Assembly: GCF_026210795.1 (NCBI RefSeq) | Contig: NC_089437.1 | Coordinates: 3,472,001 to 3,536,000 of the forward strand | Direction: 5' to 3' | Length of the DNA: 64,000 nucleotides | From: Rhizophagus irregularis | Lineage: Eukaryota; Glomeromycota; Glomeromycetes; Glomerales; Glomeraceae | Shown here: positions 14,478 through 61,888 of the stretch, piece by piece | Numbering within the stretch: the first letter of the stretch is position 1 | How the letters are laid out: each line of letters starts with the position of its first letter | The notes under the pieces: model-generated | What the model saw: only the letters and a program-made list of their open reading frames with translations | What the model was told of the DNA's origin: nothing | Database searches by the model: none | Program-made: the position numbers and the translations under genes

Positions 14478-17146
14478 TTATTTTGTTTGTTTTGGGAATA
14501 TTCTATATACTTCAAAATCATCTAAATTTCCTCCATTAATCTTTAATTCTTTATCATAAAAGCGATGTTCATAATGAATTGTTGGAGTTTTATTACAAAT
14601 TATAAGATCACAGAAATTTGGTCCCGTCTCTTTTTTATGACGTAATGCATTATAATGATCATGTACTCGACTAAGCTTGGAATTTTCTATTTTATCCTTT
14701 TCAATTTTGAATATGAAAGCTTTTTTAGATTCAATTGGATAAGTAGCTTTAACACTACGACCAGCAATCTTCCATTTTTCAGGATTGTATCCACCAATAA
14801 GTTCTCCTGTCTCTCTAATTCTTGCAATTGTTAAAGTATTTGCTAAATTATCACATTTTTCATGAAAAGCTGCACAAGAAAAATGATCAGACGTGCCTCG
14901 GTATACCAATTTAAAAACATAAGATGGGTATTCTGGTTTGAATGGTTTTTTATCAATAAAACTCGAAATAAGACTTCCATATTTTAGATTTTCGTTAATG
15001 ATAAGGTTTGCATTCTTTTCTCTTGCTTTTGGTTCATTTTGTAGAACCATAGAAGGATTTTGAAGTATTGGAGTATTAGTTTGACTAGATGGACTATTAC
15101 CCATCATATAAGATTCCATAAGGGTTTCATATATATCACCATCAAATAACCATTTATATGGTCTAACTTGTTGAAAGAAAAGATCTGAAGTTATCCATTT
15201 GAATCTTATTAAAGGAATTAAATCATTCACGTTAGCTTTCAATTTACTAAAATCTTCTTTAGGCCATTTTGAGGGTGAATCTTTACTAATAGTTGAATCT
15301 TGTGTAATACCCCATTTAATTATGAAATTCCAAAGATCAATTTCATTTGCAATTAAATCATCTCTAGATAGGAAACTGAGTAATACTTTCTTATCTATCG
15401 AACCAGGATCTTCTGATTTGAGTATAGTATCCGGATCTTGACAAAGTTGATCAAGGCAATATCTTTGAATTTCATGAAAAGCTTCACGTTTGGAAGAAAA
15501 TTTTTCAAGAGTAATTAAATTTTCTTGAATCCATCCATGATGATTTTCAAGGAAAATTGGTTGTAAGCATTCACTAAATCCTTGAATTCCTAATTCTTCA
15601 CAGGTTTCAAGAAGATCCAAAAATTCGGGTGATGACAATTCATTAGTTTTGATAATTCCAACGGCTCCACCATATATATAACTAAAAAAAAAAAAAAAAA
15701 AAAAAAAATTTAAATATAAATAAATAATTATTTAAACAAAATTTTAAAAAGTATATGTTTTCATTAAATAACTTACTCTAAAACGATTCTAAAAATTTTA
15801 GGTGAGATGTTTTCTTTTTTGAAAATAGTGATATTTTCTTCATCAACGCTATCACTATAACTCATAAATGAGGATAATGCTGAATAAAAATAAGAAACAG
15901 TTGAATTATCTTCTTCAGTCTTATTATTTTCTGATTTTTTGGATAAAGCAGCATTAAAATAAGCAGATCTAGCTTGAAGAATAGAAGAATGTGCTTGAAA
16001 TTCTTCAACATCTGATTCTTTTCCAATTATTATTTTAACATCAAATTCCTTTGATTTGGTTAAAAAATTGGTTAAATCTTCTGATAATTTATAAAGAGAT
16101 CTTATTATAATATCATCTCTAGTAAAATCTGCAAATTCTGAAGTAGAAGTAACTGAAGTAGCATCATCAATAACATTCAAACCAGAAATCGATCCTTTTG
16201 TTTCATGACTTTTCGATCCAGTTGATGATTTTTTTGATTCTGTCACTGATCCTGTCACTGATCCTACAACTGATGATGGTCTTGATCCTGTCACTGACCC
16301 TACAACTGATGATGGTCTTGATCCTTTCACTGACCCTACAACTGATGATGGTCTTGACGAAGGTTTTGGAGGATTTCCTTTTGAATTCAATTTTTTCTTT
16401 GCAGCGTACATACAAAACTGAAAGAGTGGAATATTTTGATATGAGAAGATTAATATACTATAGAATATTATATAAAATAATTAAAAACTAAGACCTCAAT
16501 TTACCTCATCAAATAGGATATACCCTCCGTGATTCACATCAATCTCATCAAATGCCTTCTTAAGTTCTTGATTCGATAACCCCTCTAGCCCCATAATTTT
16601 ATGTCCTTGCTTAAATTCTTGTAAACTAATACGATTATCATTATTTTTATCAAGTTTCTTAAACAACTGAAATAGCTCATCGTAGTAATAAAGAAATTCG
16701 ATAAGACGATTGAATTCGGAAAGTTCGATATAACCATCCTAATAGCAATAATACAGGTTTAAATATGTATGTACAATGGATAGTTAGTGTATAGTTACGG
16801 TAATGCATTTCAGGAACGCATATTTCCGAGGGTTTGGAACGTTTATTTCAGAATTTGTAAGATATTTTTCAAATAACGAACCTTTGAAATATCAGCAGCT
16901 TTGTATGCTCGCATGATAACGGGTTTATTTTTTGAAAAGTGTGGATAAAGCTCAAGGACAGCCTTATCTATTTCAGCGAGAGACAAGATACTGTTTCCAT
17001 TATAATCAAACTTATCGAAAATCTTATCGAAATGAAAGAAAGTCAAATATTTCATTAAAAATAAAAATCGGAATGGGTTTAAACAATCGTAAATATTATT
17101 ATACCTTTTTAATTTGAGTTTCTTCTAATTTTTTTAGAGTTGTCAT
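14478..17146 (-). CDS. EF-hand / BTB / BACK / TLDc fusion protein
   Basis: Minus-strand exons are 17146-17105, 17022-16882, 16738-16505, 16417-15777 and 15681-14478, giving 753 aa. Residues 15-139 hold EF-hand-like calcium-binding segments: DYNGNSILSLAE, then DKNNDNRISLQEF and DVNHGGYILFDEF. A 12-residue repeat (SRPSSVVGSVTG, three copies, residues 160-195) forms a low-complexity linker. A BTB fold follows (about 265-365, with FDVKIIIG and DYIYGGAVGI), then a BACK-like helical region, then a TLDc domain (about 585-748, with FHEKCDNLANTLTIARI, GELIGGYNP and FEVYRIF). BTB proteins usually recruit Cul3 ligases, and TLDc domains bind V-ATPase or protect against oxidative stress in other eukaryotes. 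BTB-BACK-TLDc is common in these fungi. The calcium-binding front end is less usual and suggests Ca2+-gated activity; that is inference. All splice sites keep one frame. Confidence 0.82.
16256..16357 (-). repeat. 36-bp coding minisatellite
   Basis: About three tandem 36-bp units (recognisable as gatgatggtcttgatcc on the plus strand) encode the SRPSSVVGSVTG repeats in the linker of the EF-hand/BTB/TLDc gene. The period is a multiple of three, so copy number can change without a frameshift. Confidence 0.85.
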
Positions 17147-22337: not shown

Positions 22338-24699
22338 TTAAAATCCATCTATATTAAAAAAAAAAATAGTCATTAAAAGAAGCCTAAACATTTAATTTTA
22401 AAAATTAATTATTTAAATTATAATTACCATCTGGAATTTCAAATTCATCTTGTTCTTCTGAATGAAGATTTGGATTATACATTGTATCTTCATCTACAAG
22501 TAAAATAATAATTAGAAATTGGTTATAAAATTTATAATTAAACAAATATTATAAATCATATACCATCAATATCATCAATATTGGTGTGCTTCTTTACTTG
22601 CAGTGTAATTTCTCTATTATAATCATATTGAATAATATCTATAAAATTAATTATTATTAATAAAAACTTCCAATTTGCATAATCCATTATAATTATAATT
22701 TTACTCACTATTATTTGAATTTATTTGCATATTTTCAAATACTTCAGATAATTTTTTATCGTCATCTAATTATTAAAAAAAAATTAACAAATTTTTCAAA
22801 GAATGGAACTTCAAATTAATAATAATTATTCACCTTTAATTATGTTGCTTGATTTTGATGTATTAAATGTTTTACTATCACTTTTGTTATTAAAATCGTC
22901 AACTAAATGGATTAATTAATAAACAAATAGTTATTATTGTTATTGAAGTTAACTTTTTCAAACATTTTAATTTTTTACTTACTATTATAAGGAATGTTAT
23001 AGCTATAAGGTTTACTGTGAAATGCTTTATAATTATGTTAGTTGAATACTTAAAATTTAACTAAATATAAATTAATAATAATAGATACCTTCTTGTTCTT
23101 CTGTTTAATTTGAACAAGATATTTAAAAAACAGTGTATGTTAGTAATATCCAAAACATAATATACATTTGCAATATATAAATATATGTCTTTTTATACCT
23201 TCAGTTGCATTTTTTGGTTCTGGAAGATTTTTAAATTGATAAACCTTACTTGTAAATAATCTACTACTTGTACTATTAATTTCAAAATTATTTATTTCAT
23301 TTATTTTTGAAATAGTATTAGCTTTTTGTTTAGATAATCTAGTTTTTTCAATTAATTTTTTAATTATGCTTTTATTCTTATTTAATTCATTCTGATGATT
23401 TAATCTATTTATTTCTCTTATTTCAACATTAAGAGTTTTAATACCAGGTCTTTTTTCTGGATCTGCATCCCAACATTGTTCCATTAATTCTTTATATTCT
23501 ATAGGAGTTCCTGGTACTACTTTTGGTCTCATTCCATTTATTATTTTTAGTGCAAGTTCACAATCATTTTCAAAATTAATAAAAGGTGGTTGTCCAGACG
23601 AAATTTCCCACATAAGCATACCAATACTATAAATATCAGATGCATAAGTAGTTCCTTTTCCACAAATTACTTCGGGAGCTATATAAGGAAGATTCCCATA
23701 TATACTATTTAATGGTTTATCAGCTGGTCCACAAAATCCAAAATCACTGATTCGGAACTCTTGAACCAATTGACTAAATAATATGTTTCCAGAATGTAAA
23801 TCTCTATGGATTACGTTATCTTGATGGATTTCAAAAAGTGGTAAAGTAATATTCCCAATTATTTGAATTCTTTCTTTCCATTTAAGTTTATTATGATTTT
23901 GTTGTAAATATTCTCTTAAATTTATATCCAAACGACTCATTACAAGCATATAATTTCCATTTGATGGATTTTTTGTTAAACCATAACATTCAACAACTTG
24001 TGGATGTTTGTTACTTATAGATAAATGAGATTTACCCTATTAAAATGAATGCATATTAATATAAAAGAATTTTGAATCACCATTTTCAAATACATTTAAA
24101 TTACATACCTCTTCAAACCAACTTCTATTAGCACTTTCAACATTTTCTAACTTTTTGAGTATTACATATTGCGCTCCAAATCTTTTTAATTGTTTTTCTT
24201 TTGAATCCCATTCATTATAATGACCATCAATCCATTTTGCCGTATAAATTTCAGAACATCCACCTTTAGTTAAATAAATAATATTTTGTAAATTATTATA
24301 TGGGATCCATTCTACTATCCTATCTATTTTAATTGTTTCCATTTGACATTGCTGTATTAAATTATCAATATCATTATTTCCAGATGTCCAATTTGAAAAA
24401 TTCGATTTTAAATAATTTCGAACACAATATTCACAAAATAACGTAGCTAAACATTCATCATGACAATTTTCACAAATTCTTTTTGTTCCTTCATTTAAAA
24501 AAAGTTTATAATAATCAGAATTTTTATTTAATTCTTTTATTGCATATGATTTTTCATTTTTTGTAAGAGATTTATCAGCAAGGATAGTTTTTTTTATAAA
24601 TTCAAATTTTTTGTCTAAGGTATTTTGAATATTATAATCTATTAATGCATATGCTTTATTATTTACAGTATTAACTAATTCTTTTCGAATTTCAGTCAT
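22338..24699 (-). CDS. Zinc-knuckle TKL-like protein kinase K1
   Basis: Minus-strand exons are 24699-24109, 24036-23199, 23100-23089 (12 nt), 23024-22983, 22902-22834, 22765-22709, 22638-22564, 22493-22428 and 22348-22338, giving 586 aa. An N-terminal helical region is followed by a Cys cluster (Cys76, 79, 83, 89, 92) and FSNWTSGN. The kinase fold follows: EWIPYNNLQNI, glycine loop TKGGCSEIY, beta3 Lys182, alphaC Glu196/197, HRDLHSGN (Asp276, Asn281), DFG (295-297) and APE (317). All catalytic residues are present, so it is probably active. The tail is acidic, Asn-rich and spread over mini-exons with phase-1 borders; the last exon adds only Asp-Gly-Phe. Skipping the final splice would end the protein a few residues later near 22404. 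Substrate unknown. Confidence 0.85.
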
Positions 24700-32254: not shown

Positions 32255-34075
32255 TTTATTTGCATATTCAGTTTTCAGACACTTCAGATAATTTTCTGAT
32301 TTTTAAAAATTAATAAATTCCTTCAAAAAAAGTAAAACTTTAAAATTAATAATTAAAAATTATTTACTTCAATTTTGTTAATTGATATCGATGTGTTATC
32401 ATTATTTTTGTTAATAAAATCGTCAACTATATGAAATAATTAGTCAAATTATTATTAAAGCTATTTGATTTTTTTTTAGAATAGTTACTATTATAAGGAA
32501 TGTTATAACTATAGGTTTTACTGCGAAATGCTTTATAATTATGTTAGTTGAATACTTACATTAAATTAAATATAAATAATAGATAATGTACCTTCTTCTG
32601 TTTAATTTAAACAAAATGGTAATTTAAAACAATGTTGGTAACTTGCAAATATAATAAAAGATATATGTCTATTCATACCTTCAGTTGCATTTTTTGGTTC
32701 AGGTAGATTTTTAAATTGATAAGCTTGTAAATAATCTGCTACTTGAATTGTTAGTTTCAAATTACTTATGTCATTTATTTTTGGAGCAGTATTTGCTTTT
32801 GATATAGATAATCTGATTATTTATATATATATATTCAATTAATTTTTTAACTTTACTTTTATCTTTTTTTAACTCACTTTGATAATTTAACCTATTCATT
32901 TATTCTATAATAAAAAAAAGAGTATTAGTATCGGGCCTTTTTGTTGGATCAGCATCCCAACATCGTTCCATTAATTCTTTATATTCTAAAGGAGTTCCTG
33001 ATACTATTTTTGGTCTCATTCCATTTATTATTTTTAGTGCAAGTTCACAATCATTTTCAAAATTAATAAAAGGTGGTTGGTTATCCGGATGAAATTTCCC
33101 ACATAAGCATGATGCCAATACTATAAATATCAGAGGCAAAAGTAGTTTGTTTTCCACAAATAACTTCGGGTGCAATATAAGGAAGATTTCCATATATACT
33201 ATTTAATGGTTTATCAGCTGGTCTACAAAATCCAAAATCGCTAAGTTTGAATAATTGAGATATAGTACCAAATAATATATTTCCAGAATGTAAATCTCTA
33301 TGAATTACATTTTCTTGATGGATTTCAGAAAGTGAAAAAGTAATATTCCTAATTATTTGAATTCTTTCTTTCCATTTAAGATTATTATGGTTTTGTTGTA
33401 AATATTCTCTTAAATTAACATCCATATGATCCATTACAAGTATATAATTTCCATCTGATGTATCTTTTATTAAACCATAACATGGGACAACTTGTGAATA
33501 TTTTTTACTTATAGATAAATGAGATTTACCCTAAAATTAATAAATATTACATAAAATATTTGAATTATCATCTTTCAAATACATTTAAATTACATACCTC
33601 TTCAAACCAACTTCTATTATGTATTAGCATTTTCAACATTTTCTAACTTTTTGAGTACTACATTTTGCTCTCCATATCTTTTTAATTGTTTTTCTTTTGA
33701 AACCCATTCTTCATAACTTCCATCAATCCAAACTGCTGTATAAATTTCAGAGCATCCGCCTTTGGTTAAAAATTTAATATTCTTTAGATTATCATATGGG
33801 ATCCATTCTACTATATAATCTGATCTAAGTGTTTCCATTTGACATTTCACAAATTCTTTTTGTCCCTTCGTAAAAAGAAGTTTATAATAATCAAAATGTT
33901 TATTTAAAGAATTTATTGCACATGATATTTCATTTTTTGTAAGAGATTTATCAGCAAGAATAATTTGTTTTCTAAATTCAAATTGTTTGTCTAAGGTACT
34001 TTGAATATTATAATCTGTTAATACATATGCTTTATTAATTGCAATGTTAAATAATTTTTCTCGAATTTTAGTCAT
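32255..34075 (-). pseudogene. Kinase pseudogene (K1-like) with several small insertions
   Basis: Minus-strand relative of K1, starting MTKIREKL at 34075. The Cys cluster and the WTSGN linker are deleted: GTKRICENC...QQCQMET in K1 has become GQKEFVKCQMET, with the frame restored. In exon 1 a 5-bp insertion after ENANT brings a stop; in exon 2 a 4-bp insertion after WEISSG brings another. Between them the catalytic parts survive (HRDLHSGN, DFGFC, NLPYIAPE). A 3-bp insertion makes SIGIMLMW from SIGMLMW. The tail exons are still visible, but the 12-nt microexon is reduced to 6 nt (32597-32592) and later exons carry stops. Confidence 0.85.
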
Positions 34076-37330: not shown

Positions 37331-37790
37331 GAAACTTTTAAGAGATATTCACTCACTATCAGAAACAAATAAGGATATTCGTTATTATTTAAGCAAACGA
37401 ACAAAAATATTAAATACAAAAGTTGCTCAGAATGATATCTATTCATATTATTCTGGAAAATGTGGAAAATGTGGTAAGAAGTATGCAGATATGACAAATA
37501 AATGGTGTAAATCATGTCAAATAAATCATTTAAAAAATAATTTTACAAACTGGACTAGTAAAAATGAAAAGATAGTTTCATTCAATAAATTCAATTAAAA
37601 ATTAATGATATAATTTTTGAATGGATACCATATGATCAATTTACTGATAAAAGCGATAAATGTGATTTCATTAAAATATGGAAAAATGGTCCATTATATA
37701 ATGATAAAAAAATATTGTTAAGGAAATCAAATAAAGAAGTTGATTTAAAACATTTATATAATTCATATAATATGATCAATAAAATTTTTC
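37331..37790 (+). pseudogene. Array unit 0: decayed zinc-knuckle + kinase N-lobe exon
   Basis: An acceptor at 37330 (TTTAG) leads into KLLRDIHSL and then CGKCGKKY...WCKSCQ, FTNWTSKN, a frameshift near 37577, then EWIPYDQFTDKSDK and IWKNGPL. It is very close to unit 1 of the array (40713-41166), including the aberrant TDKSDK sequence, so one is a recent copy of the other. The glycine loop is gone. It is separated from the array by about 2.9 kb of unrelated DNA. Confidence 0.7.
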
Positions 37791-38294: not shown

Positions 38295-38555
38295 GGTTTG
38301 TGCGCGATGCGTACAGATGTGCGCAAATGTGCGGAAAGTAATGACTAATGATGTGCGGAAATGTGCGCAAATGTGCGGAAAATAAGCAACAATGTGCGGA
38401 AGCGGAAATGTGCAAAAATGTGCGCGATGTGCGGAAATGTGCAGAAAGTAATGACTAATGATGTGCGGAAATGTGCGCAAATGTGCGGAAAATAAGCAAC
38501 AATGTGCGGAAGCGGAAATGTGCAAAAATGTGCGCGATGTGCGGAAATGTGCGGA
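38295..38555. repeat. 110-bp minisatellite built of GTGCGGAAAT words
   Basis: A 110-bp unit occurs about 2.3 times (for example, the same 10-mers recur at 38331/38441 and 38411/38521). Inside each unit an approximately 10-bp word, atgtgcggaa or atgtgcgcaa, recurs. It is far richer in GC than its surroundings and is followed by a GCGCGCGC patch at 38571. The frames over it encode His/Ala/Cys repeats and are not genes. Confidence 0.85.
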
Positions 38556-39835: not shown

Positions 39836-40027
39836 GATGTCGTACAGGGTCAAAAAGATAATTTTTGCAATTTTGCGTGAGACGCTATCGCCAAAAAGGA
39901 AATGATCGTCTTCACGATTAAAATTAATCCGGATAATTCGGATAAATTATCCGTTTATCCGGAGAGTTTTTTCATTTCTTGCTTTTTTTTCCTTTAATAG
40001 AATTCTCCGAACTCTTTTTTCCCATAA

Positions 40028-40545
40028 ATGGACGGTGTTCGTGTCGTAATATCAATTGGTAATTATCTAAATTCATTTTTTAAATACTGCTATTATTCAG
40101 AAAATCATCACTAAAAAATTTCATTTATTTAAACCAAGAGATTTTGGAACAACATATTCTGTAAGTTATTCTATTTAATCTTTCTTATTTTAAACTATTG
40201 AACTTTCATTAAATCATTGTAAAATTTTTAGGGATTCACATATGCACATAAAGTGAATAACGAAATTATTACGAATGATACTTGGCCTGACCAAATCGGT
40301 CCATTAAAAACAAATACAGTATTACAGTATGATGAAAATTTTAAATTTGTCGAAGAATGGGGTTATCCAGCGTTAGCTAAAAGACCAAAAAAAAGTAAAG
40401 GAAAGTCAAAAATCAGTTTGTTTCAGAACCGGTTGAGCATTTTAAATTACATTTATATAATATTCCCGATGATGAGAAACCTGTTCTGCCTAAAGGAGTA
40501 AATTATAGGAAAGCCATCATTGATTACTTGAAATGTATGGGAAAA
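40028..40545 (+). pseudogene. HSP70-like 5' fragment
   Basis: Exons are 40028-40058, 40141-40160 and 40232-40545. The start reads MDGVRVVISI and joins across an intron to DFGTTYSGFTYAH, the phosphate-1 motif of HSP70/actin-type ATPases. NDTWPDQIG, then VEEWGYPAL and VNYRKAIIDYLKCMGK follow, typical of the large HSP70-like (HSPA12-type) families of these fungi. A one-base frameshift lies in an A-rich run at about 40390-40420, and only the first ~150 residues of about 550-600 exist. The fragment ends at a phase-0 donor (AAA|GTAAGA), and the next acceptor, at 40712, opens array unit 1 in phase 0. An HSP70/kinase-array fusion transcript is therefore conceivable. Confidence 0.75.
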
Positions 40546-40712: not shown

Positions 40713-41722
40713 GTTAACATATATTTAACAGATGCTAGTTTTAATTGCAACGTATATGGAATATCTCAAAATCCAGTTACAGAAGATTATTTAATAGCTT
40801 TTCAAGATAGATATTGTGTCAAATGTGATAAAAAATACACAAATGCTAAGTATAGATGGTGTAAAGTATGTCAAATAAATCATTTAAAAAGTAATTTTAC
40901 AAACTGGACTAGTAAAAATGAAAAGATAGATAATTTCATTCAAAAAATTCAATTAAAAATTAATAATTATAATGATATAATTTTTGAATGGATACCATAT
41001 GATCAATTACTGATAAAAGTGATAAATGTGATTTCATTAAAATATGGAAAAATGGTCATTATATTATAATTATGATAAAAAAATATTATTAAGGAAATCA
41101 AATAAGGAAGTTGTTTTAAAACATTTATATAATTCATATAATATGATTAATAAATTTTTACATAAGGTATGTTTTATATAGTATTTAGTCAAAATTTTTT
41201 AATATTAATTTTAATTTTAATTTTGTTTTTTTTTATTTATTTACACAAATACTAGGTTAAAATATATTTAACAGATGCTAGTTTTAATTGCAAAGTATAT
41301 GGAATATCTCAAAATCCAGATACAAAAGATTATATAATAGTTTTTCAAGATGGTTATTGTATCAAATGTGATAAAAAATACACAAATACTAAGTATAGAT
41401 GGTGTAAAACATGTCAAATAAATTATTTAAAAATAATTTTACAAACTGGACAAGTGGAAATGAAAAAATTGATAATTTTATTCAAGAAATGCAATTAAAA
41501 ATTAATAATCATAATGATATTATAATTGAATGGATACCATATAATCAATTTAAAAATATTAAAGAAATAGGCGAGGTTGATTCTTCCAAAATTTATTCAG
41601 CAATATGGAAAGATGGTCCATTAAATTATGATTTTGATAAAATGGAATTAAAAAGAATATCTTCTAAAAATGTTTCTTTAAAATGGTTACAAATTACTAA
41701 TTCTGATGAATTTTTAATTAAG
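40713..41722 (+). pseudogene. Array units 1 and 2: frameshifted N-lobe exons
   Basis: Unit 1 (40713-41166, 454 nt) and unit 2 (41256-41722, 467 nt) have the same layout as units 3-8: the hinge strand YGISQNP, then CVKCDKKY...WCKVCQ, FTNWTS, EWIPYDQ or EWIPYNQF, and IWKNG or IWKDG. Unit 1 has a base lost after YDQ and further indels, leaving out-of-frame stops. Unit 2 has lost one base in an A-rich run just after the knuckle (CQINYLK). Both keep good phase-0 splice sites (AAG|GTA donors, TAG|GTT acceptors), so the exons may still be recognised. Sequencing or assembly error in homopolymers could explain the unit 2 lesion. Confidence 0.75.
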
Positions 41723-41802
41723 GTAATATATTTTTTATAAATTTCTAAAATAATTTTGAAAATTAGGAATATTATAATGATTCATTTTTTATGTACAAAT
41801 AG

Positions 41803-44800
41803 GTTAAAGCATGTTTAAGCATTGTTAATTGTAAAATATATGGAATATCTCAAAATCCAGATACAAAAAATTATATTATAGTATTTCAAAATGGATACTG
41901 TCTTAAATGTGGTAAAAAATATACAAACATCAAGTATAAATGGTGTAAATCATGTCAAATAAATTATTTTAAAAATAATTTTACAAACTGGACAAGTAAA
42001 AATGAAAAAATTGATGTTTTTATTCAAGAAATACAATTAAAAGTTAATAATCATAATGATATTATAATTGAATGGATACCATACGATCAATTTGAAAATA
42101 TTAAAAAAATAGGTAAAGGAAATTTTACTATGACAGTATTTTCAGCAATATGGAAGAATGGACCATTAAATTATTATTGTAGTAAAATGGAATTGAAAAG
42201 AATGTTTAACAAAAATGTTTCTTTAAAATTTTTACAAAACATTAATGTTAATGAATTCTTAACTAAGGTACGAATCTTTTATGAATTTAATTACTTCATT
42301 TTATAATATTATAATAATAATAATTCCTTTTTTATGTATAATTAGGTTAAAATGTACTTAAAAAATACTGATAGTAATTATAAAATGTATGGAATATCTC
42401 AACATCCAGATACAAAAGATTTTATCATAGTTTTACAAGATAAATATTACATAGAATATAGTAAAAATTATTGTAAAAATTGTAATGAAGTATATACAAA
42501 TATAAAATATAAATGGTGTAAACCATGTCAAACAAATAATTTAAAATTAAATTTCGGTGAAAATAAAATAATTAATGATTTGATTTTAGAAATGCAATCA
42601 GAAATCAATAATCCATTTGATATAGTATTTGAATGGATACCATGCAATCAGTTTAATGACATTGAAGAAGTAGGAAAAGATGTTCTTGAAATAGTATATT
42701 CAGCTATATGGAAAGATGGTCCATTATATTATAATGGAAAAAAATGGTTAAGAAAATCAAATACAAAAGTTGCTTTAAAATGTTTATATAACTCACAAAA
42801 TAATATTAATGAATTTTTAAATAAGGTATGACATTTTTTTGTAATTCAATTTAATTAAAATATTGAATAATAAAATTTTTTCTTAATAAATAGGTTAGAA
42901 CACATTCAACAAATGTTTATAATTGTAATAATATTCAAATACATGGAATATCTCAGAATCCAAATACAAATGATTATATAATAATTCTTCAAAGTAAATA
43001 TTGTGAAGAATATAGTAAAAAGTGTTGTATAAAATGCATGGAAAAATATACAAACATAATGTATAAATGGTGTAAGTCTTGTCAAATAGATTTCCTAGAA
43101 AAAAATTTTAAAACTTGGACTAGTGGCAATAAAAAAATTAATGATTTCATTCAAAAAATGCAATTAAAAACCGATAACTTATGGGATATAATATTTGAAT
43201 GGATACCATACAACCAGTTCAATAAAGTTAAAAAAATAGGTAGAGGTAATATTGCTACAATATATTCAGCAATATGGAAAAATGGTCCATTGTATTATAA
43301 TTATAATAAAAATGAATTGACAAGAAGGTCAAATAGAAAAATTGCTTTGAAATGCTTATATAATTCACAAAATAATATTGATGAACTTTTAAATAAGGTA
43401 TGAATAATAATATAATTTGTAAATTTAATTTAAATATTTCTTTTTTTTAATATATAAATTATATTTTGTATATTCTAGATTAATACGTTTTTATCAAATA
43501 AGGATAATAATAATTTTAAAACGTATGGAATATCTCAAAACCCAGATACAGGAAATTATGTTATAGTCCTTCAAGATAAATATTATAAAGAATATGGCAA
43601 AAGTTATTGCAAGCAGTGTACTGAAAAATATACAAATGTAGATAATAAATGGTGTAAACCATGCCAGATAAATTCTTTAAAAAATAATTTTACGTATTGG
43701 ACTAGTAAAAATAGGAAAATTGATGATTTTATTCAAGAAATGCAATTAAAAATTAATAATTGGGATGATATAATATTTGAGTGGATACCATATGACCAGT
43801 TTAATGATATTAAAGAAATAGGTAAAAGTACTATTTATTCTGCAGTATATTCAGCAATATGGAATGATGGTCCATTATATTATGATAATAATAAAATGGA
43901 ATTGAAAAGAGTATCAAAAAGAAATATCATCTTAAAATCTTTACATTATAATATATGTAATTTACAAAATACTATCAATAAATTTTTAAACAAGGTAAGA
44001 AGTCCTTTGTGATTTTAAATCGAAAATTTTTTTAATATTCTTTTCACATTTAAATAGGTTAATACATATACGGGTAATAGTAAAATATATGGAATATCTC
44101 AAAATCCAGATACAAACGATTATATAATAATTTTCCAGGAAACATATTGTGCAGAATATGGTATAAAATATTGTGAAAAATGTGATGAGAAATATACGGA
44201 TACAAAGTATAAATGGTGTAAATCGTGTCAAATAAATAATTTCAAAAAAAATTTTATAGACTGGACCAATGGAAATAAACAAATTAACGATTTTATTCAA
44301 GAACTACAATTAAGAATTAATAATTGGAACGATACAGTATTTGAATGGATACCATATAGCAAGTTTAGTAATATTAAAGAAATAGGTAAAAGCGGTTATT
44401 CTTCAATATATTCAGCAATATGGAAGGACGGTCCATTATATTATGATCATAAGAATAGTAAGGAGTGGATAAGAAAATCAGATAAAAAAGTTGTATTAAA
44501 ATGCTTAATGACCAGCGAATTTTTGAATGTGGTATGAAACTTAAACCTTTGATCTAAAAAATATATCTATTATTATATATTAATTTTTTTTATATTTAAT
44601 AGGTTAAAGCATACTTGGCAGATAAGGATAGGATTATTCTTAAAGTATATGGAATATCTCAAAATCCAGATACAAAAGATTACGTTATAGTTTTACATAA
44701 TAGTAAGATGATTGAAATTTATGAAAGATATGTGAAAAAATCTATTACAAATTGGTTTTATAATTTGCTAATCGACGAAAAAATCATAGATTTTATTCAA

Positions 44801-45935
44801 CAAATGCAATTAAAAATTAATTATTATTATGATATAATATTTGAATGGATACCATACAATCAATTTGATGATATTGAAGAAATAGGCAAAGGTGGTTTTG
44901 CTACGGTATATTCAGCAATATGGGAAGATGGTCCATTATATTTTGATGATAATAAAAAGGAGTGGACAAGAGAAATGAACAAAAAGGTTGCTTTAAAATG
45001 CTTACGTAGTTCACGAAATATCAATGAGAGATTTCTAAACGAGGTATGAGATTACAGTATAAAACATTTTATAAGTTGTTCATTGATTTAAATGTAACAA
45101 TTATTTTTTTTTTTAATAGGCTAAAGAATACTCAATCGATAGTCTTAATATTCTTAGAATATATGGAATATCTCAAAATCCGGATACTAAAAATTATATT
45201 ATGATTCTTCAATATGCGGAGGGTGGTGATTTTAATAAATGGATAAATGGAAATTATGAGAATTTTGATTGGACGAATAAAATAAAAGTATTAAATAATA
45301 TTATTAATGGTCTTAAAGAAATTCATCAAAAAAAGAAAGTTCATCATGATTTTCATACAGGTAACATATTATTTCTTTTTAGTAGCATTAGTGATATTAG
45401 TGATTATACACGTATTTCAGATATGGGATTATGTGGAGAAGTTGATAATATTGATGAAGAAAAAATTTATGGAGTTATGCCTTATGTAGCACCTGAAGTA
45501 CTAAGAGGAAAACTTTATACTCAAGCAGCGGACATATATAGCTTTGGTATGGTTATGTATTTTATAGCAACCGAAAGACAACCTTTTGCTAATCGTGCGC
45601 ATGATGAATTTTTGGCATTAGATATATGTGAAGGAGTTAGACCCGAAATAAATAAATTGAAAGCACCAAAATTTTATATAGAGTTAATGAATAAATGTTG
45701 GGATTTAAATCCAAATAAAAGACCAAATGCAACAGAAATAAGTGATCAAATAAGTCTTTGGAAAAATGATGATTTTGAACATGTAGAAAATTATCGAAAA
45801 GCAAATCTTTTTAAAAGGGACCAATTAATAAATCATCCGCAAGCTATTTATACATCTCGAATACTCAATCCTTATACAAAAAATCTATCAAAATATTATA
45901 ATTCCAATTGTTCAGAATGTGCAATTGTTGATTAA
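41803..45935 (+). CDS. Tandem zinc-knuckle/kinase N-lobe array with one C-lobe
   Basis: Exons are 41803-42267, 42346-42825, 42894-43397, 43479-43994, 44058-44531, 44603-45043 and 45120-45935: 1,231 codons open throughout if all are joined. The true 5' end is not known. Each of the first five (units 3-7) encodes the hinge strand YGISQNPDT, a CxxC...WCxxC knuckle, a Trp-containing linker, EWIPYNQF, a glycine-loop region, the beta3 Lys and an alphaC stub. Unit 8 lacks the Cys pairs but has the best glycine loop, IGKGGFATVY, VALK and the alphaC Glu. The last exon supplies hinge and C-lobe: HHDFHTGN (HRD with His for Arg), DMG in place of DFG, and VAPEVLRGK. HHD-type loops are usual in this fungal family, so activity is possible. 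All introns are phase 0 and 63-81 nt. Confidence 0.8.
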
Positions 45936-48596: not shown

Positions 48597-50686
48597 TTAC
48601 TTACAATCAGTAACTTTTAATTCATCTCGTTTTTCTGATGAATGAAAATTTGGATTATATGTTTCATCTTCATCTAATTTTAGAATTAAAATAAAAATTA
48701 TATTATATATAATTCTAAAATAATTACTTACAACGACGAAATAAAAATTTTTGATATCTAAGAATAATTACCCTTATCATTATTTTCCAACTTTACTTTC
48801 TTAGGGTTAGGGTTAACAGTTAAATTATTTTGTCCTTCTACTTTAAAGTAATAGAAAGTTAATTATTTTTTTTACTAACTGTTGATAAATAAAATGACTC
48901 ATTACCATTAAAGTAAATTCTTTTATTAGATTCGTCTTCTACTATTTTTTAGGAAAATTAAAATATCGTTAAAATCATACCAACTAATAATTTCAATATT
49001 AATTAAACTTACCTGTAATCATACCATCTTGTAAATCAAAGTCAAATTGTATACTATGGTAAGCTATAAAACAACGTTATATATACTATATTTTCCCACA
49101 TACAAATTGTTTAAACAAATATTGATGATTACCTTCTTGTTCTTCTATTAAATAAAATTATAGATAAACGGTTATTATGATGTTAATTAATCTTGATAAA
49201 TAAAAATCTTTTTACCTTTTGTTGCATTCCTTGGTTCAGGCAAATTTTTAAAATAATAAACTCTGCTACTAGAATTTCTAAAAAAGGTGTTAATAGAGTT
49301 AGTAGAACTTATACTAAAATTTGTGTTTAATTGAAAGTTATCTATGTTTGTAATGTTATTTGTCTGTTGTTCATCATTTTCATTATTGAGATATTTTCTA
49401 TATAAAGAACTTATTTCCTTATCAAGAGTATAGATATCAGGTCTTTTTGTTGGGTCAGCATCCCAACATTGTTCCATTAGTTCTTTATATTTTAAAGGAG
49501 TTCCCGGTATTATTCTTGGCCTCATTCCATTTATTATTTTTAATGCAAGATCATAATTATGTTTATAAACAAAAGGTGGTTGTCCGGATGAGATTTCCCA
49601 CATAAGCATACCAATACTATAAATATCAGATGCAAAAGTAGTCCTTTTTCCACAAATAACTTCGGGTGCAATATAAGGAAGATTTCCATATATACTATTT
49701 AATGGTTTATCAGCTGGTCCACAAAATCCAAAATCACTAATTTTGAATAATTGAACTATTTGATTAAATAATATGTTTCCAGAATGTAAATCTCTATGGA
49801 TTACGTTATTTTGATGGATTTGACGAAGTGCACCAATAATAGCATTAATTATTTGAATTCTTTCTTTCCATTTAAGTTTATTATGATTTTGTTGTAAATA
49901 TTCTCTTAAATTTATATCATAACGACTCATTACAAGCATATAATTTCCATTTGATGGATTTTTTGTTAAACCATAGCATTCAGCAACTTGACTATATTTG
50001 TTACTTATAGATAAATGAGATTTACTCTATAAAAATTAATGCATATTAATATAAAAGAATTTTGAATCACCATTTTCAAATACATTTAAATTACATACCT
50101 CTTCAAACCAACTTCTATTAGCACTTTCAACATTTTCTAACTTTTTGAGTATTACACTTTGCCCTAATCTTTTTAATTGTTTTTCTTTTGAATCCCATTC
50201 AACATAATGACCATCAGTCCAATCTGCCGTATAAATTTCAGAGCATCCACCTTTAGTTAAATAATTAATATTTTGTAAATTATTATATGGAATCCATTCT
50301 ACTATTCTATATAGATTAATTGTTTTCATTTGACATTGCCGTATTAAATTATCAATATCATTATTTCCAGATGTCCAATTTGAAAAATTTGATTTTAAAT
50401 AATTTCGAACACAATGTTCACAAAATAACGTAGCTAAACATTCATCATAACAATTTTCACAAATTCTTTTTGTTCCTTCATTATAAAGAAGTTTATAAGA
50501 GTCAGAATCTTTATTTAACTGATTTATTGCAAATGATTTTTCATTTTTTGTAAGAGATTTGTCAGCAAGAACAATTTTTTTTACAAATTCAAATTGTTTG
50601 TCTATAGTATTTTGGATATTATAATCTATTAATGCATATGCTTTATTGATTACAATGTAAACTAATTCTTCTCGAATAGAAGTCAT
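48597..50686 (-). CDS. Zinc-knuckle TKL-like protein kinase K2
   Basis: Minus-strand exons are 50686-50099, 50026-49216, 49144-49133 (12 nt), 49063-49013, 48941-48906, 48840-48772 and 48673-48597, giving 547 aa. It is the closest intact relative of K1: the same CENCYDEC...CEHC cluster, FSNWTSGNNDIDN, glycine loop TKGGCSEIY, VILKK, HRDLHSGN, DFGFCGPAD and IAPEVICGK, with every catalytic residue present. The tail differs: AYHSIQFDF, then a 36-nt exon, then a 69-nt exon encoding NPNPKK whose DNA contains two TTAGGG telomere units, then DEDETYNPNFHS to the stop. The mini-exons have phase-1 borders. A TCACGTGA site lies about 205 bp upstream (50892-50899). Confidence 0.85.
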
Positions 50687-55128: not shown

Positions 55129-57550
55129 ATGTCTTTTATTAGGAATAAATTAGTTAGTGATGCAATTAATAATGCATATTTATTAATAGATTATGATAAA
55201 AATGAAGAAGGACAATATGAATCTATAAAACAAACCATTCTTAGTGACGAATCACTTTCACATGATGAAAAATTAGAAGCAATAAATATAATAAGTAAAA
55301 ATTTTGATGGGTTTAAAATTCTTGATAATGAAGGAACAAAAAGAATTTGTGAAAATTGTCAAGAAGAATGTTTAGCTAAATTATACTGTGAGCATTGTGT
55401 CCGAAATTATTTGAAAACCAATTTTGAAAAATGGACATCTGGAAATAATGATGTTGATAATTTAATACAGCAATGTCAAATGGAAACAATTTCACCGGAT
55501 AAGATAATAGAATGGATACCATATAATAAATTAGAAAATATTAAATATTTGACTAAAGGTGGATGTTCTGAGATTTACACAGCAGATTGGATTGATGGAA
55601 GATATGAAGAATGGGATTCAAAAGAAAAACAATTAAAAAGGTTTGGTGCACATGAAGTAGTATTAAAGAAGCTAGAAAATATAGAAAATACTAATAGGAA
55701 TTGGCTTGACGAGGTAATTTTTAATTTAAATAAAAATTGTTTACGATCTTATTAACAAATCTCATATTAAAAATTCAGACTAGATCTCATTTTGCTATCA
55801 ACAATAAATATGGATCAGTAGTGCAATGTTATGGTTTAACAAAAGATCAATCAAATCAATCAAATCAATCAAATCAACCAAATGAATCAAATGAAAATTA
55901 TATTCTTGTAATGAATAGAATGAAAATGAATTTAAGGGAATATTTGCAACAAAATTGTAATAATCTAACATGGAAAAGAAGAATTAAAATTGCTGATGAT
56001 ATAATTTTTGCACTTTCCAATATTCACGAAGAGAAAGTAATTCATAGGGATCTGCATTCTGGAAATATATTATTTGATGAAAATAGTCAAATATTTTATA
56101 TTAGTGATCTTGGGTTTTGTGGACCGGCCGATGTTCCATTAGATGGCACGTATGGAAATCTTCCATATATAGCACCAGAAGTTCTTTCTGGAAAAGAAAC
56201 TACCTTTAAATCTGATATTTATAGTATCGGTATGCTTATGTGGGAAATCTCATCCGGACAACCACCTTTTATTAATTTCGATCATGATTTTGATCTTGCA
56301 TTAAAAATAATAAATGGAATGAGACCAAAAATAGTACCAGGAACTCCTCCAAAATATAAAGAATTAATAGAACAATGTTGGGATGCTGATCCGTCAAAAA
56401 GACCCGATATTTCCCATCTTGACAATAAAATTTTCGAGATCAACAAATTGTATCATCAAAATAATAATGATGAACAGTTAGATGTTTTAAATATAAGTGA
56501 TGTGAATATTAGTATCTCAGTGAATTCTTTAATTAGTAGTTTTAGTAAAATACACATTTTTGGAGAAATGCCAGAACCAAGGAATTTCACTGAAGGTAAA
56601 TTATTTCATATTATATATTATTAATAATCCTTTTATAATTAATAATATTAAATTTATTATCTTTATTATCTTTGAGTCAACAGAAGAACGAGAAGGTAAT
56701 TTAAATTAGTTTATTTAATAATAAAATAATTAAATACTAATTTTTTTTAAAGCTTACTATAGTAATCAACAAGATTTTGTTATTCCCGATAGTAGGTAAG
56801 TATTTGCTTAAAATTAAAGTTTTAAATTATATTATTTAAATAATTATTAATTTTTTTTAAAAAAAATTGAAGATATATATTTGGACGTCAAACCGAGAAC
56901 AATGATTCAACTGGTAAGAATATTATGTTTATAATTTATTTGATTATATGATCTAATAATAATTTAATTAATTTAGATAAAAATGTAAAGGGTGAATCTA
57001 AAAGAATTTATTCGAATAATAATTTAGACAGTAATTAATTTTTAACAATAATAGAAATTATGCGTTGATGATTAGAAACTAAAAATTATTTTTTATTGCT
57101 TTTAAAACAATAGGTGAAAAATTTAAGAAAATAAAATTAAGTGAAGACGAAGGTAATAATATTTAATGTTTTATTAACGTTTAAGACTCTTTAATATCTT
57201 AATTTTTTAAAAAAAAATTAGAAACACAATTTGATAATAAAGGAGAATTCAATTATATAAGAGAACATTACATCACGAATACTACGAATGATGGTGAATA
57301 AAATTTATTTAATTGTCTTTTTTTTTAAAAAAAAAAAATTCTAATATTAATGATATTATGAATATAGATATGAATATAGATGACGGTGATGATACGTATA
57401 ATAATCCGAATCTTCATTCAGAAGAACAGGATGAATTAGAAATTTTTGAAGGTAAATTGGTTTAAACATAATTATACTAATTCTACTGTTTTTAAATTAA
57501 AAGAAAAAATAAAATTAATTTTTTAATTTTTAATTTTTATTTTAGATTAA
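55129..57550 (+). CDS. Zinc-knuckle TKL-like protein kinase K3
   Basis: Exons are 55129-55713, 55779-56595, 56684-56695 (12 nt), 56753-56795, 56873-56913, 56977-57030, 57114-57152, 57222-57293, 57368-57451 and 57546-57550, giving 583 aa. The N-terminal half matches K1/K2, with CENCQEEC...CEHC and FEKWTSGNNDVDN. The kinase fold has TKGGCSEIY, VVLKK, HRDLHSGN, DLG instead of DFG, and IAPEVLSGK. The hinge region carries a unique Ser-Asn-Gln repeat from (TCAAATCAA)n near 55847-55875. The tail has eight small exons; most have phase-1 borders, except the 43- and 41-nt pair, which share a phase-2 intron. NNPNLHSEEQDEL near the end matches the K1 tail. The 56977 exon would hit a stop at 57037-57039 if its donor were not used. 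Confidence 0.83.
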
Positions 57551-60177: not shown

Positions 60178-61888
60178 ATGACTGAAATTCGATATGAATT
60201 GGCTGTTGCTGCAATTAATAGAGCAATGACATTAATTGATAATAATATTCATGATAATCTTGATAAAAAAAGTGAATTTTTACAACAAACTATTCTTGCT
60301 GATGAATCTCTCACAGAAGATGAAAAATTAGTATCAATAGATTTTATTATTAAAAATTTTGATAAACATAAAATCCAAAATAACAAAGGAACGAAAAGAA
60401 TTTGTGAAGATTGTCAAAATGAATGTTTAGCTACTTCATATTGTGAATGTTGTATTCGAAATTATTTAAAATCGAATTTTTCAAACTGGACATCAGGAAA
60501 TGATGATATTGATAATTTAATACAAAATTGTCAATTGGAAACGCTTAAACCAAGTAGAATATTAGAATGGATTCCATATAATAAATTCCAAAATGTCAAT
60601 TATTTAACTAAAGGTGGATGCTCCGAAATTTTTATAGCGGATTGGATTGAGGGGCGTTATAACGAATGGGATTTGAAAGAAAAGCAATTAAAAAGAGTCG
60701 GTAAACGTCAAGTAATACTTAAAGGATTAGAAAATATTGAAAAAGCTAATAGAAATTGGTTTGATGAGGTAGGTATAATAGAATATTATCGAAAATTTTT
60801 CGTTAAAAAAAAAATAATAATAATAATGAAATAAATATCATTATTTTTATAGGCCAAATCTCATATAACAATAAGTAATAAATGGGATAATGTAGTAGGA
60901 TGTTTTGGTATAACACAAAATCCATCAAATGATAATTATATGCTTGTAGTACAACTAATGGATACCGATTTAGAAAAATATTTACAACAAAACAATCAAG
61001 AACTTACATGGAAAAAAAGAATTCAAATTGTTCAACATATAATTTATGCACTTTCCAGAATTCATGGAGAAAACGCAATTCATAGAGATTTACATTCTGG
61101 AAATATATTATTTTTGCATCTTAATCAAAGTTTTTATATTAGTGATCTTGGATTTTGTGGACCAGCTAATGTACCAATAAATGGTACATATGGAAAACTA
61201 CCATATATAGCACCAGAAGCTATTGTGGGAAATAAAACTACTTTTGAATCTGACATTTACAGCATTGGCATACTTATGTGGGAAATCTCATCTGGTCAGT
61301 CACCTTTTGCTAATATCAGTCATGATATTAATCTTGCAATGAATATAGTAAATGGAATGAGGCCAAAAATAATTCCAGGAACCCCCTTAGAATACAAAAT
61401 ATTAATGGAACAATGTTGGGATGCTGATCCAGCAAAAAGGCCTGATATTAATAGTCTTTACGATAAAATAAGCGAAATAAAAAATTCGTATAACCAAGAA
61501 CATCATGAAACATTTTCACACGCAAATGTTACAAATTTTAGTTATACTAAATCTATCAGCAAAGTACATATGTATGATAATTTACCTGAACCAAGAAATG
61601 CTACTGAAGGTAATGTAAGCAGTTAAATAAATGTTTGTAATGTATATATATTTAATTAACGTTATTGATTCTTTAATTAATAGAGGAACAGGAAGGTATA
61701 ATAATCGAAAAATAAAAAATTTGATATATTCAATCATTTTTTGTAAATTTTTTTTTTTTTTTTTTAGTCTATGATAGTACGCAATATGATTTTATTATTC
61801 CGGACGATATTAGTAAGTAAAATATCTTTAACTTTACCACTGTGAATATAATGTAATAATTTTATTTTAAATATATAGGCGATGATTA
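60178..61888 (+). CDS. Zinc-knuckle TKL-like protein kinase K4
   Basis: Exons are 60178-60768, 60853-61609, 61684-61695 (12 nt), 61768-61812 and 61878-61888, giving 471 aa. CEDCQNEC...CECC and FSNWTSGNDDIDN precede the kinase fold: TKGGCSEIF, VILKG (beta3 Lys kept), HRDLHSGN, DLG and IAPEAI. It has the shortest tail of the four: microexon, then VYDSTQYDFIIPDDI, then a last exon adding Ser-Asp-Asp and a stop. That last exon and its 3' flank are tandemly duplicated 279 bp downstream, giving a second acceptor and an alternative end (Ser-Asp-Asp-Tyr). A further candidate tail exon with the right phase lies at 62946-63019. Confidence 0.84.

Follow-up and report, generated by a model that had tools for sequence, protein, structure and literature searches.

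Repeated kinase N-lobe exons ahead of a single C-lobe exon in Rhizophagus irregularis: a predicted gene architecture that recurs across the genome

The exon array in the window

We analysed a 64,000-nucleotide stretch of the Rhizophagus irregularis genome (contig NC_089437.1, positions 3,472,001 to 3,536,000 of the forward strand), hereafter called the window, in which consecutive exons repeat the amino-terminal lobe (N-lobe) of a protein kinase and are followed by one exon for the carboxy-terminal lobe (C-lobe). The same layout was found on most contigs of this genome, and as a rule only the N-lobe beside the C-lobe exon keeps the loop for adenosine triphosphate (ATP). This is a real and apparently undescribed gene architecture within a known superfamily, the translation and function of which are predicted from the sequence.

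The exons of the window array (Table 1) were rebuilt manually and by script. From U3 through the C-lobe exon (41803-45935) the length of each exon was divisible by three, and the joined frame comprised 1,232 codons including one terminal stop, which confirmed the 1,231 open codons proposed in an earlier note on this region. The six introns between U3 and the C-lobe exon are 78, 68, 81, 63, 71 and 76 nucleotides (nt) long, lie in phase 0 and have GT...TAG ends; the phase-0 units with one common C-lobe exon that the note described were thus borne out. Support was also obtained for its proposal that each unit fuses the start of a second kinase exon (beta4-beta5) to the ribbon and N-lobe part of a first exon. 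However, of the eight equal module exons claimed, U3-U8 are open, whereas U1 and U2 carry internal frame changes and are not open as single exons, and an additional decayed unit (U0) lies beyond the eight. The glycine loop assigned by the note to every unit is canonical only in U8, near-canonical in U3 and U5 and degenerate in U4, U6 and U7, and within U3-U8 the helix-C glutamate (Glu) is present in U8 alone. The zinc knuckle reported to be degenerate in unit 8 has indeed lost its cysteines there, but the motif itself is of another type. A CCHC zinc knuckle reads C-x2-C-x4-H-x4-C, whereas the units carry a CxxC...CxxC pattern (139/149 internal units of the arrays described below) that is nearer to a zinc ribbon, and the ribbons gave only sub-threshold matches in Pfam, some of them to zinc ribbons.

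The 5' end of the gene was located by comparison with two paralogous arrays on contig 28 (L017 and L018), which are collinear with the window array and 81-85% identical to it in the longest blocks. This match starts at about 41379, inside U2, and upstream of it only weaker unit-to-unit matches of about 73-80% were detected. The N-lobe part of U2, U3-U8 and the C-lobe exon share their reading frame with an ATG at 41411, which opens a frame of 1,335 codons (312 + 3,696 nt including the stop). Because the collinear match begins at 41379 and this in-frame ATG lies just downstream, we place the putative start of the gene at 41411. The intact window gene is therefore likely to be 41411-45935, with seven predicted N-lobes and 1,335 codons. 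If the gene starts at this position, U0, U1 and the front part of U2 would be fragments of older or foreign origin.

Table 1. Exons, broken units and introns of the array in the window (positions are those of the window).
Feature	Position	Strand	Description	Basis
U0	~37407..37786	+	Decayed first-exon-type unit: ribbon and N-lobe, without beta4-beta5, two reading frames	Six-frame translation, profile match
U1	40713..41166	+	Broken: beta4-beta5, ribbon, linker, N-lobe start, then frame change	
U2	41256..41722	+	Mixed exon: front in one frame, N-lobe part in another	
Possible first coding exon	41411..41722	+	MSNKLF...FLIK, 104 codons, no ribbon	ATG and donor located; role suggested by L017/L018 alignment
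U3	41803..42267	+	beta4-beta5, ribbon, tryptophan (Trp) linker, N-lobe beta1 to helix C; glycine loop near-canonical; Lys in place of helix-C Glu	
Intron U3-U4	42268..42345	+	Phase 0, GTACGA...TAG	
U4	42346..42825	+	Module as U3; degenerate glycine loop; Lys at helix-C Glu position	
Intron U4-U5	42826..42893	+	Phase 0, GTATGA...TAG; second in-frame codon is a stop	
U5	42894..43397	+	Module as U3; near-canonical glycine loop; Lys at helix-C Glu position	
Intron U5-U6	43398..43478	+	Phase 0, GTATGA...TAG	
U6	43479..43994	+	Module as U3; degenerate glycine loop; Lys at helix-C Glu position	
Intron U6-U7	43995..44057	+	Phase 0, GTAAGA...TAG	
U7	44058..44531	+	Module as U3; degenerate glycine loop; Val at helix-C Glu position	
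Intron U7-U8	44532..44602	+	Phase 0, GTATGA...TAG	
U8	44603..45043	+	Terminal unit without ribbon cysteines; canonical loop GKGGFATVY; beta3 Lys; last codon is helix-C Glu	
Intron U8-C-lobe exon	45044..45119	+	Phase 0, GTATGA...TAG	
C-lobe exon	45120..45935	+	beta4-beta5, hinge, VHHDFHTGN, DMG, APE, stop	Pfam match and motifs

A complete kinase domain at the end of the array

When U8 and the C-lobe exon were joined, the product matched a complete kinase domain in Pfam (PF07714 positions 5-257 of 258, E 7.8e-38). U8 alone covered positions 5-51 (E 0.03, under the curated cut-off) and the C-lobe exon alone positions 58-257 of 258 (E 1.6e-30), and thus the kinase is split just after helix C. The beta3 Lys, helix-C Glu, HRD Asp, Asn, DxG Asp and APE expected of a PF07714/PF00069 kinase were all found in the joined exons, as VALK, FLNE, VHHDFHTGN (with His in place of Arg), DMG and APE. 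Among solved structures, the nearest were EGFR (1.2e-21) and 7t6f, 'Tyrosine-protein kinase' (1.6e-20), and MAP3K9 (5.9e-19), RIPK4 (1.1e-18) and MAP3K7 (1.8e-18) were also near the top in the PDB. Since the first two outscore the other three, the assignment to a kinase group (TKL or other) is loose. To our knowledge, N-lobe repeats are not known in MAP3K9, RIPK4 or MAP3K7. The internal units U3-U7 have no C-lobe of their own; they end after helix C, and after beta5 the chain enters the ribbon and not the hinge.

Related arrays throughout the genome

The genome (146,748,485 bases in 32 contigs, the window being on contig 9) was searched with 76 residues over the beta5/ribbon junction of U7, and the best 150 of 2,709 candidates were scored. 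Four more junction queries from other arrays were used in the same way with the best 150 places each, and 749 of the 750 places were typed and merged (149 of 150 for one of the queries). Among the matches listed for the five queries there were at least 408 distinct fused units in 147 clusters on 24 of the 32 contigs, at least 96 of these clusters having two or more units, although some adjacent clusters may belong to one array. The median spacing of the units was 545 nt, and 214 of the 261 gaps between neighbours were 450-700 nt, again among the matches listed. These unit numbers are lower bounds because each query gave its best 150 places. Thus, the window array is not a lone case but one of many with the same layout.

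We then fetched 20 loci around the largest clusters and 13 (L021-L033) chosen at random from the 126 uncovered clusters. All 13 random clusters consisted of a first exon, internal units and one C-lobe exon, with 4-9 N-lobe slots; seven of them had shown a single unit among the matches listed, yet they too proved to be arrays. In all fetched loci together there were 33 arrays in which a single C-lobe exon followed 4-12 N-lobe slots, and so none had the two complete kinase domains of tandem kinase or pseudokinase proteins. These counts depend on the script, which splits chains at every C-lobe exon, and cover chains that have a C-lobe exon and at least three units; left out were the single kinases (window and L027), pieces in L007, L011, L016, L017, L024, L026 and L030, and the array L017. 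The slot counts of L001, L004, L009 and L020 are minima owing to cuts at the locus edge, and that of L016 (seven) includes one C-lobe piece. The chains start with a first-type exon, except in the window (U1) and in the first array of L004, which is cut by the locus edge. First exons are without beta4-beta5, and an in-frame ATG was present in 23/33 arrays. The Asn was present in the C-lobe exons of all 33 arrays and the catalytic Asp in those of 32, and the DxG pattern and APE were each found in 31.

On contig 14, two clusters (712667-715553 and 720302-723142) have units with identical scores, shifted by a constant 7,589 bases, and are apparently the result of a very recent whole-array duplication. 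In IMG/VR and GTDB contigs, 5 and 17 stretches, respectively, matched one of two short peptide patterns, and no relative was confirmed among them.

Position in the array and the ATP site

Contrary to the picture in the earlier note, the N-lobes of an array are not equivalent, since as a rule the ATP loop is kept only by the last one. A loose glycine-loop pattern was present in 25/29 terminal units but in only 5/149 internal and 0/28 first units (P 1.5e-21), and the four terminal exceptions were single-residue variants of GKGGFATVY. With a GGF-type pattern, which was devised after viewing the terminal units, the counts were 30/30, 1/148 and 0/28 (P 2.9e-35), and in the random sample alone 12/12, 1/39 and 0/10. 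The helix-C Glu was present in all 29 terminal units compared with 78/149 internal (P 9.6e-8) and 15/28 first units. The beta3 Lys was found in 29/29, 136/149 and 23/28, and the ribbon cysteines in 25/29, 139/149 and 18/28 of the terminal, internal and first units, respectively. Internal N-lobes are thus mostly without the glycine loop and about half of them are without the helix-C Glu. In the loose-pattern residue counts, 4/33 terminal units (L015, L016, L018 and L033) were split or unusable; unit 6 of L016 was relabelled since its C-lobe exon is split, and it counts as internal in the residue, nearest-relative and substitution analyses and as terminal in the tree and the GGF counts. Most arrays are more extreme than that of the window, in which the loops of U3 and U5 are near-canonical.

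Coding constraint was estimated as the ratio of nonsynonymous to synonymous divergence (dN/dS). For internal units, it was 0.47 (0.41-0.54) over the 28 pairs that were mutual best matches between arrays, and neutral simulations gave 0.61-1.10, varying with the mutation model. In the loop segment the ratio was 0.03 (0.00-0.23) for terminal units, from 7 pairs only, versus 0.78 (0.53-1.15) for the 28 internal pairs. Between the window and L018 it was 0.27 over 5 unit pairs and 792 codons. About 125 stop-creating changes would be expected under neutrality among the 1,446 differences in the 28 pairs, these pairs having been chosen as intact. Positive selection on the linker between helix C and beta4 was considered and rejected: dN/dS was 1.22 (0.87-1.70) there, but neutral simulations average 0.67-1.06.

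Introns and natural two-unit frames

The 192 introns of the arrays have a median length of 71 nt; outside the window the script sought phase-0 splice sites only. An in-frame stop is present in 183 of them, and therefore an open frame normally depends on splicing. In 121/192 introns a stop already stands at the second in-frame codon, in most cases because the donor is GTATGA or GTATAA. Six natural open reading frames (ORFs) span two successive units with no stop between them (L006, L028, L033, L034, L035 and L036, the last three having been fetched for their long frames). The join lies apparently at the usual exon boundary in L006 and L036, and for L028 and L034 a readable intron is another possible reading of the joining stretch. 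These two-unit ORFs are the best evidence here for two units in one chain, with the join seen at the DNA level.

History of the arrays

The nearest relative of a terminal unit was the terminal unit of another array in 27/29 cases, and 71/149 internal units had their closest relative inside their own array. In a tree of 206 units the terminal label changed 9 times versus 28.5 after shuffling, and the array label 101 times versus 177. A closely related pair, L010 and L011, was 95.6-100% identical exon for exon, starting with L010 exon 3, which pairs with L011 exon 4, and continuing through the C-lobe exon, and exons 1 and 2 of L010 were only about 87% identical to exons 2 and 3 of L011. The last eight N-lobes are aligned between these arrays, the totals being 10 and 11 N-lobes with a difference of one unit at the 5' side. 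This pattern fits whole-exon duplication and loss, with the terminal unit tied to its own C-lobe. The beta5-to-ribbon layout is common to all intact internal units examined, in keeping with a single founding fusion, the symmetric exon of which was later duplicated. An origin from head-to-tail kinase genes that lost their C-lobes had been suggested earlier, but repeated losses of C-lobes would be unnecessary.

Proposed function and alternative explanations

We consider it likely that these genes encode an exon-duplicated chain of zinc-ribbon and inactive N-lobe modules serving one kinase. At the base of this proposal, a phase-0 intron splits the kinase domain right after helix C, as seen in the sequence. 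In a founding fusion, the start of a kinase gene, with its zinc ribbon, would then have been attached to the end of beta5, creating an exon with a phase-0 boundary at both ends, and because the two boundaries are equal such an exon could be copied in tandem. The spliced protein would read ribbon, N-lobe, ribbon, N-lobe and so on, with beta4-beta5 supplied by the next exon in each case, and the last N-lobe together with the single C-lobe would form the only ATP-binding kinase of the chain. Since the core residues, the ribbon and the open frames are kept while the ATP loop is mostly lost, the internal N-lobes are probably non-catalytic docking or recognition repeats, which might recruit partners, either other kinases or proteins that bind N-lobes, and might control the terminal kinase in cis. 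The copy number of units could shift by unequal exchange between them. More tentatively, the kinase N-lobe, which is half a fold, may have turned into a free repeat module; some 100 or more genes, each with as many as a dozen or so N-lobes, mostly inactive, plus zinc ribbons, could then represent an evolvable recognition array that is read by one kinase and in which exons are the unit of variation.

Several observations weigh against the proposed chain, and some of them suit the alternative that the internal units are relics, either skipped in transcripts or belonging to arrays that are mostly dead, so that the working product would be an ordinary single-N-lobe kinase. At least one automatic defect call, some being intronless joins, was made in 21/33 arrays; only 11/33 were open throughout with every splice site found (a twelfth was open as far as the locus edge that truncates it), and in the random sample 3/13 were fully open and the C-lobe exon was broken in 4/13. 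In the window itself U1 and U2 are broken, and its close relative L017 has no C-lobe exon in the fetched stretch. The introns are a weaker argument for constraint: their divergence in the youngest pair (L010 and L011) is not above dN (4/541 sites, 0.007, versus 0.009), and in the window/L018 comparison it is 0.186, with dN 0.116 and dS 0.428. Moreover, dN/dS of whole terminal units (0.50, 0.33-0.81) is not below that of internal units, and the terminal units fall into more than one clade, with 9/30 in the largest of the nearly pure ones. U3-U7 reached no kinase model in Pfam and only weak matches in the PDB (best kinase E 0.12), and an AlphaFold2 prediction for U5 together with five further exons of the window was set aside at a mean predicted local distance difference test (pLDDT) score of 39, so the folding of internal units as N-lobes rests on their sequence similarity to U8. 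Nevertheless, we regard the relic explanation as unlikely. Among 227 unit slots, 15 were split by a stop or a frame change and 212 were unsplit (six of these with no donor found), the internal units evolve at a dN/dS below the simulated neutral range, their ribbon cysteines and beta3 Lys are largely retained, and natural two-unit frames exist. Some defects may also be assembly errors: the published R. irregularis assembly has a quality value (QV) of 36.27, or about one error per 4 kb (PMC10234402), and because of this value decay and assembly error cannot be told apart in the defective arrays.

The remaining alternatives are less probable still. The stops within introns could mean that intron retention yields N-lobe chains without a C-lobe, that is, separate inhibitory products besides the full kinase, since a protein read into most introns would end soon after the unit; however, GTATGA and GTATAA may be merely the donor consensus of this genome, and we judge this explanation to be improbable. 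The phase-0 boundaries would likewise let any unit join the C-lobe exon in frame, as expected if the N-lobe exons were mutually exclusive and singly spliced to it, giving many kinases per gene. It is very improbable that this is the case, as the glycine loop is regular only beside the C-lobe exon and the helix-C Glu is always present in that unit, so that the exons are not interchangeable in their loop pattern; in addition, first exons are without beta4-beta5, and frames with two units exist. Finally, repeats are hard to assemble and neighbouring units are alike in some other arrays, but a false repetition of tandem units in the assembly is close to refuted for the window array. Compared with the first row in each of two alignments, its units show 46-60% identity, too little for one copy falsely repeated, and the layout recurs on 24 contigs.

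Comparison with known kinases

Five single-N-lobe kinase genes or fragments, of the kind more common in R. irregularis, lie in the window at 55335-56486 (+), 60390-61539 (+), ~49295-50554 (-), 32912-33940 (-) and 23248-24567 (-). The first two of these and a kinase in L027 (7787-8970) are like the arrays in their CxxC ribbon, WTSGN linker and EWIP motif, in an N-lobe exon that ends after helix C and in a C-lobe exon that opens with beta4-beta5. They differ in having one N-lobe and no fused beta4-beta5/ribbon exon.

In JAKs and similar kinase-pseudokinase proteins an inactive kinase-like part controls an active kinase, but such pseudokinases keep both lobes, whereas the internal units described here are without a C-lobe. 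In the HipBST split kinase, a separate N-lobe-like domain controls the kinase core; this system differs in being bacterial, in belonging to another kinase family and in having the N-lobe-like domain as a separate, non-repeated protein. The closest working analogy is found in plant tandem kinase proteins (the wheat WTK family and Lr9), where a degenerate module stands in cis with an active kinase and a decoy-plus-output model has been proposed in which the degenerate kinase domain may be the decoy (PMC10260399). The plant proteins are described there as having two kinase domains (PMC10260399), whereas the arrays have one C-lobe for 4-12 N-lobe slots.

In full-text searches that covered listings and some passages of a literature without most subscription papers, we found no description of such N-lobe exon-array genes, and the statement of the earlier note that no kinase with six or more N-lobes had been described was not contradicted there. 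Counts of protein kinases usually take the whole two-lobe domain as their unit, and a family with many N-lobes is easily overlooked because the Pfam kinase models miss U3-U7. If the arrays are translated as predicted, they would demonstrate that a repeat module can arise by amplification of one half of a kinase fold, and they would be a clear case of ATP-loop loss that depends on position. Under the same condition, they would offer a concrete lead on the purpose of some of the kinases that have expanded in arbuscular mycorrhizal fungi; one published annotation contains 2,533 kinases (PMC10234402).

Other features of the window

A broken gene fragment at ~40020-40545 (+), directly 5' of U1, was initially thought to be Hsp70-like, but this assignment was rejected since searches of Pfam and the PDB gave no support for it. 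A 110-base tandem repeat is located at 38316-38552 (2.2 copies, 98%) with the core ATGTGCGGAA, and a 36-base tandem repeat (3.1 copies, 97%) occupies 16247-16357.

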